8,483 nucleotides of DNA, from contig QHOZ01000098.1 of assembly GCA_003219495.1 (NCBI GenBank), forward strand, positions 1 to 8,483, read 5' to 3'. Every line of letters starts with the position of its first letter. Positions within the stretch are counted from its first letter, which is position 1. A program made the translations under genes and the position numbers. Origin of the DNA: Verrucomicrobiota bacterium. Lineage in GTDB: Bacteria > Verrucomicrobiota > Verrucomicrobiae > Chthoniobacterales > UBA10450. The notes beneath the pieces were generated by a model, which saw only the letters and a program-made list of their open reading frames with translations, had not been told where the DNA came from and searched no databases. Positions 2,720 through 6,669 of this stretch are shown here, piece by piece.

Positions 2720-3505
2720 TCAGTGCTCGCGGATCCATTCGCCGCGCACTGGCTCTTCAGGCCCGCCGCGGCGCGGACGATAAATTGGCGCATGGGCGCC
2801 GGGAAGAAGCTGGAGCGCCGCGAGCGTCTCGAGATCCAGTCGACCGGTGACGGGCAATCGAACGCGGGATTGATACGCGCGCAACGAAAACTCAAGCTCG
2901 GGTCCCGCGAACCCGTCAACTGTGCCGCGATATAATCCCTGACGCGCCAAAACATCTTGGGCGGATAAAATCACGTCGCGCTGAACTTCCAACGGCGAAT
3001 TTGCGTAAGGCGTGCCGGCAAAATGCGCGCCCGATTGCACCGGTGCGGCGCCGTACTCCGGTTGCGGTGGCACTTGCTCGTTAGGCTGCAGCGGAGGCGA
3101 GACCGATCGATCTTGTTGTTGCGGTTGCGGGAACGGCTGACCCGTCAACGGATTGGTTGGCGCTGAACTTTCACGGCTCTCCTCACGTAAATCGGAAGTG
3201 TTGGGAGGCGCCGCAGCCTCTGGCGCGGTTGTCGGTGAAGCTTTCACCGTCGCGTGAATGCCGGAAGCATCGACGCCGAGCGACTTCAACGTCTCATCGT
3301 TTGTTTCGCCGGTGATCTGCAATCCGTTGCGAATCTGATAACGCCGGATGGCTGCAGTTGTGTCGGCGTCTTTGGTTCCGGTGACGTCGCCGTAATAAAA
3401 ACCTTCGTCCTTGAGCGCTTGCTGGACGTTCTGCGTAAGACTGTCCCCGCGCGCAGTAATCGCAATTGCACCGAGCAACGTCACCACTGCGAGCCGAAGT
3501 TTCAT
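2720..3505 (-). CDS. Exported protein with two peptidoglycan-binding (PG_binding_1) domains
   Basis: This 261-residue protein has a signal peptide at residues 1-20 (MKLRLAVVTLLGAIAITARG). A first PG_binding_1-like three-helix repeat covers about 23-77 (VQQALKDEGFYYGDVTGT ... AAIRRYQIRNGL ... TLKSLGV). A Pro/Gln/Ser-rich flexible linker spans about 85-165. A second repeat covers about 174-234 (AQDVLARQGLYRGTVDGFAG ... LRAYQSRVRLPVTGRLD ... LAALQLL). Both repeats show the family pattern of length helix, G-x-x-x-G turn, R-x-Y/F-Q and T-G-x-x-D-x-x-T-L. No catalytic domain is present, so it probably binds or anchors to the cell wall. It is the last gene of the apparent ubact-proteasome unit, 29 nt after the amidase stop, and may work with that amidase as a wall-targeting partner (inference). 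No Shine-Dalgarno is visible. It ends tail-to-tail with the DUF3108 gene. Confidence 0.85.
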   Translation of the reverse strand: MKLRLAVVTLLGAIAITARGDSLTQNVQQALKDEGFYYGDVTGTKDADTTAAIRRYQIRNGLQITGETNDETLKSLGVDASGIHATVKASPTTAPEAAAPPNTSDLREESRESSAPTNPLTGQPFPQPQQQDRSVSPPLQPNEQVPPQPEYGAAPVQSGAHFAGTPYANSPLEVQRDVILSAQDVLARQGLYRGTVDGFAGPELEFSLRAYQSRVRLPVTGRLDLETLAALQLLPGAHAPIYRPRRGGPEEPVRGEWIREH

Positions 3506-3534: not shown

Positions 3535-4329
3535 CTATTCAGTCTTCGCCCCGGTTACCGCGAGCGGCAGTTGTCGATCTTTCAACACGTCTCGGTAATG
3601 CAAAATGCCTTCGCTAATTGCCGCTGCCATTTGATCGCGATAATCGTTGCTCTCGAGCCGGGCGATCTCGTCCTTGTTTAGAAATCCGCCTTCCACCAAC
3701 ACCGCCGGCGCGGCAACGTTCGCGATGACGAAAAACTGTTCAGCTTTAGTCCCGCGGTCGGGCGCTCTTGTTCGCGCGATCATCGCTTCTTGAATAAATT
3801 TCGCGAGACTCTCGCTGGCCAGGGTCGGACTCTCTGCCGCCGGCCCCTGGAAAAACGGCATCCACGAAACCAGCCGCGGAGCGGGGGCGGATTGATGCTC
3901 CGCGAAATAAGTTTCCACGCCGCTTGCCGGCTTCTTGCTCTCATTGAAATGAATGCTCACAAAAATGCAATCGCGCGCGCGATTGGTGACCGCGACCCGG
4001 TCCTGAAGCGAAACGTAACTGTCGCCCACGCGCGTCATCAAAGTAGCGAGACCTTGCGATTGCAATAAGCGATCGACGCGTTGCGCGATGTCGAGCGTGA
4101 GATCTTTTTCCAGAATTGTGCCGCACATCGCTCCCGAATCCTGACCGCCATGGCCTGGATCGAGCACGATCAAAGTAAACGGCGCGGGCACGCCGGCATT
4201 CGGCGCGGAAGATGTCGACCTTGGAACGATAAGAATCTCGCCCCAGATGAACGACGCGAGCATGAGCGCAAGCCCCAGCCACGCGACAATGTTTTGCATT
4301 GCCCAGCCGATGTTGAATCGCCGCGGCAT
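3535..4329 (-). CDS. N-acetylmuramoyl-L-alanine amidase (Amidase_3, AmiC-like)
   Basis: This is a zinc hydrolase that cuts the bond between MurNAc and the stem-peptide L-Ala in peptidoglycan. The 264-residue protein starts MPRRFNIGW and has one membrane segment or uncleaved signal at about 12-35, so the catalytic domain should face the periplasm. The Amidase_3 signature is complete: DPGHGGQDSGA with zinc His60, LEKDLTLDIA with zinc Glu74, SLQDRVAVTNRA, VSIHFNES with zinc His127, and VLVEGGFLNKDE with catalytic Glu213. No AMIN or LysM targeting domain is present. The ATG at 4329 lies 2 nt after the prcA stop. The open frame extends upstream into prcA with Arg-rich sequence unlike a signal peptide, so that longer start is rejected; an internal Met11 is a possible alternative. 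Close packing with prcA implies co-transcription with the proteasome. Confidence 0.92.
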   Translation of the reverse strand: MPRRFNIGWAMQNIVAWLGLALMLASFIWGEILIVPRSTSSAPNAGVPAPFTLIVLDPGHGGQDSGAMCGTILEKDLTLDIAQRVDRLLQSQGLATLMTRVGDSYVSLQDRVAVTNRARDCIFVSIHFNESKKPASGVETYFAEHQSAPAPRLVSWMPFFQGPAAESPTLASESLAKFIQEAMIARTRAPDRGTKAEQFFVIANVAAPAVLVEGGFLNKDEIARLESNDYRDQMAAAISEGILHYRDVLKDRQLPLAVTGAKTE

Positions 4330-4331
4330 TT

Positions 4332-5111
4332 CTAACTCTGCAAAATCGAGCGCAGCTCCTGGTCGGCCAACGTGCGATAGCGAATGGCGCTTTTTCCGTC
4401 GCGCTCGAGAATGGCAGCTTCCACAGCCGAATTTACAAGTTGTTCCTGCGAATATTTTCGGGCGACTTCGCGATCTGGAACGTCCTTCGTCTCGCTTCCG
4501 TGGATCGCCATGTGGCCAACGCTCCATGCGTCGGCGGCAGTGAGGATCGCATCCGGCAAGGCCGCATCGGTCACGTGATTCTGTTGCAGAAATTTTTCCA
4601 TCAATTCGCTGGACGCTTTCGTTCCACTAAGCACGGCAAAGCGTTGTCGCGGCTGGGCGGTTGGCCCGTCGGCGGCGATTGAACCGTCGTAGTCCACCGA
4701 CAAAAACAAATCTTCTTTTGGACTCGAACCGATCTCCGCGAACAAAAGGCGCGCAAGATAAGGCGGACCATAAATTTGCTCGAACGCACTCTTCATCACC
4801 GGGCTCAATGAATAATGCGCGAGCCGCCGCAGCGACACGTCCGCCGCGGAGCGCGTGAATCCTTCAGTGCTCGCCACTTCAATCGCCGCCAGACGCAAGC
4901 GCTCGATATCGCCTGGATGACCGATCGCTCCCATTGCAATCCGATCGTAAATCTCGAAAAGTTTTTGCCGCGAACGGCGGCCGATGGTGAGAAACAAGAT
5001 GCCGTCGCGATAGCCGACGGCCGCGATCGGACTTCCCTGCGCGAGCTGCGTCTCGATGTACTCGCGCCGGTTCGCGATCGCTTCTACCCATCTGTACGGT
5101 TCTTCGATCAT
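4332..5111 (-). CDS. prcA: 20S proteasome alpha subunit (PrcA)
   Basis: This 259-residue protein forms the outer, non-catalytic ring of the bacterial 20S proteasome, gating entry and docking the ring ATPase. The order matches actinobacterial PrcA: an N-terminal helix PYRWVEAIANRREYIE, then SPIAAVGYRDGILFL, RRSRQKLFEIYDRIAMGAIG (family pattern QKxxELYDRxxxAxxG) at about 45-64, GDIERLRLAAIEVASTEGF (RRGGIQxADTxGY equivalent), and a C-terminal half with VDYDGSIA (139-146). There is no catalytic N-terminal Thr or propeptide, as expected for alpha. Lys50 aligns by eye with the pocket lysine that binds the C-terminal HbYX-type tail of the ATPase in known proteasomes. The ATG overlaps the prcB stop as ATGA, suggesting translational coupling and matched dosage of the two rings. 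Similarity to actinobacterial PrcA is clear but diverged, consistent with a non-actinobacterial lineage. Confidence 0.9.
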   Translation of the reverse strand: MIEEPYRWVEAIANRREYIETQLAQGSPIAAVGYRDGILFLTIGRRSRQKLFEIYDRIAMGAIGHPGDIERLRLAAIEVASTEGFTRSAADVSLRRLAHYSLSPVMKSAFEQIYGPPYLARLLFAEIGSSPKEDLFLSVDYDGSIAADGPTAQPRQRFAVLSGTKASSELMEKFLQQNHVTDAALPDAILTAADAWSVGHMAIHGSETKDVPDREVARKYSQEQLVNSAVEAAILERDGKSAIRYRTLADQELRSILQS

Positions 5112-5905
5112 CCCACGCGTTCCATAAAGATCTGCGAAACTTTCTCTTCCGACAGCGTCGTGATTCCATCGCGCGAAACGATTTTGATCAGCGGGAAAAT
5201 TTTCCCGCTACGATCCACCCCGCCGGTTGCAGTGTCGGATTCGGCTGCCGTATCCAAGGCGCGCAAGGCAATCGCGACCGCTTCCTCTTCATTGAGTTCG
5301 TGAAGTTTTTTCGCGCCCCAATGGTTCTCGTAATAAAGAATGCCGCGCACGGCCGGCGAACCCGAACCCGTCGCGGCGAACTCTGTCACTTCGAAGTTTG
5401 CGCCCATTGCGTCGTAAAAATATAACCGCGCTTCCGGCTTAGAGTTGCCGTCGTACGTCGCAAAAATCGGGACGACCACGCCGACGCCTTGCATGACCAA
5501 TCCGAAATTGTCGCGCAACAGCTTTGATAACGCGCGCACTTTTCCGTCCACGCTCATCTCCTGCAATTGAAACGAATGTTCAAGCACGCGCGCCATTTCC
5601 CAGGCCGTGGCGGGCACACCTGCGATCGCCATGATCGAATGTCGATCGATATCGAGCACTTTGTCGGCGCGATCGTAAACAATGGTGTGAGCGGCCGTCG
5701 CGCGACGATCGCCCGCAACCAGAACGCAGACGGAAAACTTAACAGCGAGGATCGTGGTCGATTCTGTCGGCACGAACGATTGGTTCGTCGGGGCGGCAAC
5801 GTTCTCGGGCGCAATTTGCATTAATCCTTTCCGGCGCAACATCGCCGGAAAATCTTCGCTCCCTGCCGAAAAATTCGGATCGAGCGCCAGTGGCGGCTTG
5901 TCCAT
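5108..5905 (-). CDS. prcB: 20S proteasome beta subunit (PrcB), catalytic threonine protease
   Basis: This is the proteolytic subunit of the bacterial 20S core. It is 265 residues from the ATG at 5905, whose first base is the last base of the ubact TAA (TAATG). Residues 1-49 are a propeptide; autocleavage before Thr50 would expose the active site. Numbering from that Thr, Thr1, Asp17 (in VLVAGDRRAT) and Lys33 (in DRADKVLDID) all fall exactly where the threonine-protease set is expected. Further matches to PrcB are MQGVGVVVPIFATYD, ATGSGSPAV and ALDTAAESDTATGGVD, which carries the conserved Asp and Ser/Thr near the active site. The protein should be active. A longer frame adding 46 residues exists, but it runs through ubact and gives non-family sequence, so the MDKPPLALD start is chosen. 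Confidence 0.94.
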   Translation of the reverse strand: MDKPPLALDPNFSAGSEDFPAMLRRKGLMQIAPENVAAPTNQSFVPTESTTILAVKFSVCVLVAGDRRATAAHTIVYDRADKVLDIDRHSIMAIAGVPATAWEMARVLEHSFQLQEMSVDGKVRALSKLLRDNFGLVMQGVGVVVPIFATYDGNSKPEARLYFYDAMGANFEVTEFAATGSGSPAVRGILYYENHWGAKKLHELNEEEAVAIALRALDTAAESDTATGGVDRSGKIFPLIKIVSRDGITTLSEEKVSQIFMERVG

Positions 5906-6081
5906 TATTGCCCGGTGCGCTGGCGGTAGCGCTTGGATTGGTTGGGATCCACTTTCCGCATTTTCTTCAGCAGATCCTTCGTGTCCGGCCGGGAAATATC
6001 CGGCGAGCGCGGACCACCCTCGTCCCCTTGCTTCGGACCCCACGGAGCGGGATCAACTGGCTTCTGCACGCGCTCCGGCAT
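5905..6081 (-). CDS. ubact: UBact/Pup-like prokaryotic ubiquitin-like modifier
   Basis: This is a 58-residue protein found by reading the gap upstream of prcB. It is hydrophilic and looks disordered: the first half is Pro/Gly-rich (PVDPAPWGPKQGDEGG), the second holds an amphipathic segment DTKDLLKKMRKVDP (about 33-46), and it ends KRYRQRTGQ. Small size, disorder, a C-terminal Gly-Gln and a position directly before prcB fit a Pup-type modifier. The RYRQR(T/S)G(Q/E) ending is the mark of UBact, the Pup relative in several Gram-negative phyla including Verrucomicrobiota (established knowledge). A Gln end implies deamidation to Glu by a Dop-like enzyme before a PafA-like ligase can form an isopeptide bond to substrate lysines. 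The coding strand has no Shine-Dalgarno, and the mRNA may be leaderless. Its TAA overlaps the prcB ATG. Confidence 0.93.
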   Translation of the reverse strand: MPERVQKPVDPAPWGPKQGDEGGPRSPDISRPDTKDLLKKMRKVDPNQSKRYRQRTGQ

Positions 6082-6168: not shown

Positions 6169-6669
6169 ATGAAATTGCTCGCCGAAGGTGTTTTGGGCGC
6201 GCTTGCAGCTTTCACCATTTGCAGCGCTGCCGCGCAAACATTCGCGCCAAGTCCTAATCCGGCCGCCAGCGAGGCGGCGCAACTTCAGGAGCTCACGAAA
6301 AAGATCGACGAGCAAAACGCGAAGATCGACATGTTGTCGCAGCAGATTTTGAAACTTCAGCTCGAGGTCACCCATCAGCGTCCCGGGGTGATGATCGGCG
6401 AAGCGAGCGCATCGAGCACCGCATCGGCGTCCATCGCAGCGTCAACCTCCTCACCCGCCGCATCACCTTCCGCTTCCGCCGCGGCCAATGGCAACAGTCA
6501 CGTCGTCGCGCGTGGCGAGACGCTCACTTCGATTGCCAAAATGCACGGAGTGAGCGTGAGCGATCTGCAGAAATTCAATCACATCGATAACCCGCTCAAG
6601 TTGCTGGCCGGACAAACTCTCCAGATTCCGCCATCTCCAGTCCCGTCTCCTTCTTCGTCCGGCGAATAA
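6169..6669 (+). CDS. Exported coiled-coil protein with a C-terminal LysM domain
   Basis: This 166-residue protein has a signal peptide at residues 1-23 (core VLGALAAFTICSAAAQ). A short coiled coil follows at about 35-68 (LQELTKKIDEQNAKIDMLSQ), then a low-complexity Ala/Ser-rich linker at about 78-108, one LysM domain at about 110-153 (HVVARGETLTSIAKMHGVSV ... LQKFNHID ... LLAGQTLQIP), and a Pro/Ser tail. LysM binds N-acetylglucosamine glycans such as peptidoglycan, so it is probably a periplasmic wall-binding protein; the coiled coil may oligomerise it. There is no enzymatic domain. It starts divergently from ubact across 87 bp and is followed after 3 nt by the GYF_2-like gene, implying an operon. 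No clear Shine-Dalgarno precedes the ATG; the signal peptide supports this start. Confidence 0.85.
   Translation: MKLLAEGVLGALAAFTICSAAAQTFAPSPNPAASEAAQLQELTKKIDEQNAKIDMLSQQILKLQLEVTHQRPGVMIGEASASSTASASIAASTSSPAASPSASAAANGNSHVVARGETLTSIAKMHGVSVSDLQKFNHIDNPLKLLAGQTLQIPPSPVPSPSSSGE

Follow-up and report, generated by a model that had tools for sequence, protein, structure and literature searches.

Bacterial proteasomes are described from Actinobacteria in the accessible portions of PMC4254994 and PMC12288473. Pup-like genes in Verrucomicrobia were reported by Iyer et al. (2008), where the text available (PMC2588565) lists Chthoniobacter flavus among the abbreviations for its ligase alignment. 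The UBact conjugation system was described in 2017 (Lehmann et al. 2017, as cited in the accessible part of PMC12751074), and a 2020 study (PMC7947786), in its available sections, called the occurrence of Dop/PafA very sporadic in groups other than Actinobacteria and Nitrospirae, among them Verrucomicrobia.

We analyzed a stretch of DNA of 8,483 nucleotides, hereafter the window, whose minus strand carries ubact, prcB and prcA in that order between 6081 and 4332 (Table 1). It is highly probable that in their host, a member of the Chthoniobacterales, these genes belong to a protein-tagging and proteasome system of the UBact (Pup-like) type. Verrucomicrobia are a Gram-negative group, and the original prediction of a Pup-type tagging and proteasome system in a Gram-negative bacterium is supported by Verrucomicrobia-titled loci closest to the window and by the presence of UBact, Dop, a PafA-like protein and the ATPase in relatives. 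In the parts of the literature available, systems of this kind are already known, with Pup-like genes of Verrucomicrobia on record since 2008 (PMC2588565) and UBact since 2017. What is new here is its frequency in the order, the layout of its genes and the Tyr-less tail of its ATPase.

The locus shares with the UBact system of Lehmann et al. (2017) the modifier family, a C-terminal G[QE], adjacent prcB and prcA genes and a Gram-negative host, but in this order ubact-prcB-prcA lies apart from the ATPase gene, and an amidase gene comes next. With the mycobacterial Pup-proteasome (Pup, Dop, PafA, Mpa and PrcBA) it has in common the catalytic residues, a lysine equivalent to Lys52 and the C-terminal Gln of the modifier, and homologues of Dop, PafA and Mpa are present in relatives of the window. 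In contrast to the mycobacterial system, the modifier is UBact by profile and not Pup, the ATPase tail is [VI][VI] and not GQYL, and the PrcA positions of Arg26 and Glu119 are changed. The residue before Thr1 is Gly in PrcB chains 2h6j and 2jay, whereas here it is Ala or Ser. The Pup-like genes of PMC2588565 resemble this one in phylum and in encoding modifiers of 50-90 residues with a G[EQ] end; according to the accessible text of that paper the Pup gene invariably adjoins the PafA gene, whereas ubact of the window has no neighboring pafA, and in C. flavus (L140) pafA lies upstream of ubact beyond other genes.

Table 1. Features of the ubact-prcB-prcA locus and its flanks, in positions of the window
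Feature	Positions	Strand	Evidence
ubact, 58-residue protein modifier, C-terminus RTGQ (Gln predicted to be deamidated)	5905..6081	-	PF20513 81.1 bits, NF033388 83.2 bits
prcB, catalytic 20S beta subunit, 49-residue propeptide	5108..5905	-	PF00227 90.2 bits, TIGR03690 152 bits, bacterial beta subunits top in PDB
Codon of mature Thr1 (PrcB residue 50)	5756..5758	-	aligned with 1q5q_H residue 1
Mature PrcB Asp17 (5708-5710) to Lys33 (5660-5662)	5660..5710	-	both invariant, 81/81 rows
prcA, 20S alpha subunit, 259 aa	4332..5111	-	TIGR03691 81.4 bits; 8/8 PDB matches are proteasome alpha chains
Amidase_3 N-acetylmuramoyl-L-alanine amidase, N-terminal hydrophobic segment	3535..4329	-	PF01520 160 bits on longer ORF 3535-4527
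Peptidoglycan-binding-domain protein, next in gene run	2720..3505	-	PF01471 89.9 bits
LysM protein, divergent, bounds operon on its 5' side	6169..6669	+	PF01476 53.7 bits

The modifier and the two proteasome subunits

The small protein scored far above the cut-offs of both UBact models (27.8 bits for PF20513 and 35 for NF033388), and UBact was the sole family that it matched in Pfam and NCBIfam at E up to 1. The Pup profile gave no match in the same search, and Pup proper was rejected as its identity. A 58-residue modifier ending RYRQRTGQ directly before the proteasome subunits had been predicted, with a profile search against UBact and Pup as its check; the reading frame was found as described, joined to prcB through a one-base overlap (TAATG), and the profiles assigned it to UBact. 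A free C-terminal Gly-Gln or Gly-Glu is present as RTGQ in 66 and as RTGE in 11 of 78 copies, counting the window, and the last copy (L065) is broken. The expectation that automated annotation can miss such a gene holds in part: curated models do recognize UBact, yet many of the top 120 out of 384 matches go by the name hypothetical protein, and only two of these 120 are 58 aa long.

All three genes are under purifying selection. In comparisons with the three closest relatives (L001-L003), ubact gave a dS of 0.71-0.86 and a dN of 0.008-0.015, and dN/dS of the subunits was 0.07-0.12 overall, with 0.07-0.09 for PrcB and 0.07-0.12 for PrcA.

The mechanically called frame of the beta subunit spans 5108-6043, and prcB probably starts at 5905, with an ATG whose first base is also the last of the ubact stop codon, giving a protein of 265 aa. 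Alignment with chain 1q5q_H puts Thr1 at residue 50 with Asp17 and Lys33 in place, the catalytic residues of the original prediction. Thr1 is present in 78 of the 81 aligned rows, the other three being truncated at a contig end (L037, L048) or broken (L065). It is preceded by Ala in 62 and by Ser in 16 of 78 readable copies, the window having Ser and Gly not occurring; among 120 protein-database matches listed, a sequence pattern located this residue in 112, as Ser in 84, Ala in 27 and Gly in 1. Gly at this position is a common, not a defining, feature of bacterial PrcB.

Both subunits pass the cut-off of the Proteasome family PF00227 (22.4 bits), PrcB widely and PrcA narrowly (25.5 bits). Their best NCBI families are the bacterial 20S beta (TIGR03690, 152.3 bits) and alpha (TIGR03691) models, as the original prediction required, but both stay below the equivalog cut-offs of 191.9 and 139 bits. 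In PDB both PrcB and PrcA come closest to chains of bacterial 20S proteasomes, and structure models were of middling confidence (mean pLDDT 66.9 and 71.5). The predicted structural subunit beside PrcB is identified by its best family as a bacterial 20S alpha subunit, and in one relative's genome (G001) this PrcA/PrcB pair provides the only two Proteasome-family matches.

The prcB and prcA frames overlap by four bases (ATGA). With start codons chosen by script and the counts tallied from rows that include the window, the ubact-prcB junction measures -1 in 56 of 78 sequences and falls between -4 and +6 in 76, and the prcB-prcA junction measures -4 in 70 of 76. At one locus (L073, 4523-6641) about 2.1 kb separates prcB and prcA, which elsewhere usually overlap. 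Three loci (L077, L078, L080) carry ubact-prcB with no prcA beside it. A core built without alpha subunits was considered for such genomes and rejected: the genomes to which L078 and L080 belong (G314 and G036) carry prcA at another place, and assembly gaps may explain why it was not found in G034 (L077) or in G315 (L013), where the contig ends just after prcB.

Gene order and partner genes in relatives

To collect PrcB relatives, one genome per species was scanned and the best 80 of 92 loci were kept. The closest loci are titled Chthoniobacterales or Verrucomicrobia, with a top identity of 84%, and by these titles the host can be placed in Chthoniobacterales, Verrucomicrobiota. The flanks are syntenic: among sequences assessable on that side, an MsbA-like exporter lies upstream in 52 of 66 and the divergent LysM gene in 60 of 66, which argues for an old, vertical residence of the locus in the group. 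The window also encodes Omp85- and OmpH-family genes. An in-frame TAG at 351-353 interrupts an otherwise continuous Omp85 (BamA-like) frame at 3-1094 on the plus strand; both sides of it match Omp85, relatives have matches at the same position in the gene order, and the TAG is either a sequence error or a real nonsense change.

The Amidase_3 frame can start 2 nt after the prcA stop in the window. The region downstream of prcA was assessable in 66 of 81 sequences (window included; 10 were too short and 5 had no prcA at the locus), and among these 66 an amidase gene follows in 62, a peptidoglycan-binding gene in 62 and both in 61. Taking the amidase start nearest to the prcA stop, a choice that favors short gaps, the distance is -10 to +40 nt in 58 of 62. 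The amidase is likely to share one transcript or operon with prcA, an arrangement that may tie the core functionally to the cell envelope. No link between proteasome and amidase in Verrucomicrobia was found in the accessible literature searched, which included few subscription journals.

The tagging enzymes are not encoded within the window and were found in relatives. In 36 genomes taken from the 80 loci, all of them selected for having PrcB, Pup_ligase, UBact and the ARC OB-domain were each matched in 35; in 14 control genomes Pup_ligase was matched in 1, UBact in 0 and the OB domain in 5. One PrcB-selected genome (G004, an assembly of 1.7 Mb) gave no UBact, Pup_ligase or ARC match, and the contig that carries its prcB breaks off at the expected place of ubact. 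Dop is clear in L137, with 501 bits against a cut-off of 492 and PDB scores of 414 bits to Dop and 262 to Pup ligase. The second enzyme is closest to PafA by small margins over Dop: 325 against 307 bits in L138 (cut-off 551; PDB 238 against 232), 335 against 324 in L140 and 336 against 311 in L145. The ATPase is closest to the proteasome-associated ATPase (342 bits in PDB), and its TIGR03689 scores of 465 (L139) and 443 bits (L144) lie under the cut-off of 505. A named genome with these parts is that of Chthoniobacter flavus Ellin428 (L066, G027). The window's own genome presumably encodes pafA, dop and arc as well.

Placement of these genes varies. In several relatives (L137, L139, L144) dop and the ATPase gene are neighbors, in G027 they lie on different contigs, and pafA is on another contig than ubact in G001 and G003. 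Of 41 UBact genomes from outside the order, 31 have the ATPase gene no more than 4 kb from ubact. Inside the order 0 of 35 do: the two genes are on different contigs in 34 genomes and 36 kb apart in one (G032). The order of the window thus appears to have split an ancestral cluster, a reading to be taken with caution as many of the assemblies are fragmented.

Proposed pathway, ATPase tail and alternative readings

By analogy with the mycobacterial system, UBact would be synthesized with a C-terminal Gln, which Dop, encoded elsewhere and in several relatives beside arc, would deamidate to Glu. PafA, from outside the window, would then join this Glu to lysines of substrates, and an ARC/Mpa-type ATPase would thread the tagged proteins into a PrcA7-PrcB7-PrcB7-PrcA7 core, to be cut there by PrcB Thr1 once loss of the 49-residue propeptide had freed it.

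In the accessible text of PMC12288473 and PMC9599533, mycobacterial Mpa and PafE require GQYL, whose carboxylate can pair with Lys52 of the alpha subunit and whose Tyr contacts Arg26 or Glu119. We collected 55 ATPase stretches, 25 from the first set of relatives and 30 from the 41 class genomes outside the order, of which L174 and L200 are truncated and the other 53 have a readable C-terminus. Each of these 53 closes with two Val/Ile residues (VI in 21, VV in 20, II in 8 and IV in 4). Tyr occurs in the last four residues of 0 of 53, GQYL was never seen, and a tail of the hydrophobic-Tyr-X type was not encountered among them. The entropy of the last two positions is 0.99 and 0.77 bits, compared with 2.2-3.4 bits at positions -3 to -16, although the ungapped numbering of columns from the C-terminus inflates linker entropy, and the sequences are related and hence not independent events. 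The tail is therefore held as the linker drifts. No report of a Tyr-less ATPase tail was found in the literature searched, as far as its text was accessible and with few subscription journals covered.

On the side of the alpha ring, K50 of the window's PrcA aligns to Lys52, Q25 to Arg26 and L119 to Glu119. All 73 PrcA rows examined have Lys at the Lys52 position, Leu at the Glu119 position and Asp at the Asp144 position; none has Arg at the Arg26 position, and only 9 have Ser at the Ser146 position. Another 35 rows, 30 of them taken from the class sample and 5 from the order, with two of the genomes also contributing to the 73, have Lys in 35, Leu in 25, Ile in 9 and Met in 1 at the Glu119 position, Asp144 in 34, and Arg at the Arg26 position in 3. 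As far as a pocket mapped through a distant alignment and tails from this class alone can be compared, ATPase and PrcA show correlated losses at the two partners of a single contact. There is moderate support for docking of the ATPase by a Val/Ile-Val/Ile tail in place of one with Tyr. As a second lineage whose ATPase tail differs, this group offers a natural experiment on the contacts that gate opening requires.

We tentatively propose, as a combined reading whose chances fall a little short of even, that the ATPase of the UBact systems in this class opens the 20S gate through a C-terminal Val/Ile pair that lacks the Tyr on which mycobacterial and eukaryotic activators rely, with a pocket changed to match (Lys kept, Leu, Ile or Met at the Glu119 position in every row read, Arg at the Arg26 position in only 3 rows), and that the Chthoniobacterales core is co-expressed with a peptidoglycan amidase and tied to envelope work. 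A different reading makes UBact tagging mainly regulatory, with an ATPase that does not feed the 20S core and a core that uses another activator or none. The lack of Tyr in all 53 readable tails would fit this, as would the position of the ATPase gene in the order, off the ubact contig in all but one of 35 genomes and at a distance of 36 kb in that one, again with many fragmented assemblies. However, a tail whose last two residues are nearly fixed behind a variable linker, a docking-pocket lysine kept in every PrcA row (73/73 and 35/35) and the proximity of the ATPase gene to ubact in 31 of 41 genomes outside the order (within 4 kb) all argue for an ATPase that still serves the core, and a mainly regulatory role seems to us rather improbable.

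The other two alternatives to a working UBact-proteasome concern the beta subunit itself, and both are weaker candidates. The core of the window could be decaying, with PrcB losing function: this PrcB is without six residues, after LEHSF, that the other 19 copies of alignment A2 contain, and it deviates at mature positions 6, 10, 11, 23, 26 and 36 and at one propeptide position, the deviating positions each showing a conservation of at least 90% among the 119 nearest other matches listed. Positions 10 and 26 vary more across the wider set of loci. Against decay, the frame and the catalytic residues are intact, the dN/dS of PrcB lies within the range of PrcA, and at the gap the PrcB chains in PDB exceed that of the window by just two residues; decay is quite unlikely. 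The gap and substitutions may be real drift or a sequence error, the latter being possible since the nearby Omp85 frame also has an in-frame stop. An identity of the beta subunit as HslV or another Ntn hydrolase could appeal only to weak HslV profile matches of 27 and 22 bits (NF003964 27 bits, cut-off 137), which the bacterial 20S beta score far exceeds. PrcA had no HslV match at E up to 1, an alpha subunit adjoins prcB and no further Proteasome-family match occurs in G001. This identity was rejected on the profile scores and has practically no likelihood left, and the original assignment of the subunits to PrcB/PrcA over HslV stands.

Distribution in the order and class

The PrcB-selected genomes are complemented by a less biased sample of 213 genomes from the order of G001, in which two match lists were compared by eye. 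UBact was above cut-off in 111 genomes, Pup_ligase in 121 and both in 110. In the class sample, UBact was above cut-off in 56 of 286 genomes, and all 41 UBact-positive genomes outside the order have ARC and PrcA matches, with that to PrcA weak and partial in G223. The UBact-proteasome set is common in this order, in about half of the genomes sampled, and the rarity of such systems was overstated as far as this order is concerned. A modifier found in about half of one order's sampled genomes and a fifth of the class sample compares with the "very sporadic" occurrence described in the available part of PMC7947786.

In the order sample UBact occurs by itself in one genome (G165), and Pup_ligase is accompanied by no listed UBact in 11 others (G334, G368, G388, G389, G396, G412, G415, G420, G422, G423 and G428), which could be incomplete assemblies or use a different modifier. 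Two UBact-family matches per genome were seen in three cases: in G355 and G437 both exceed the cut-off, and in G106 one of the two stays below it.
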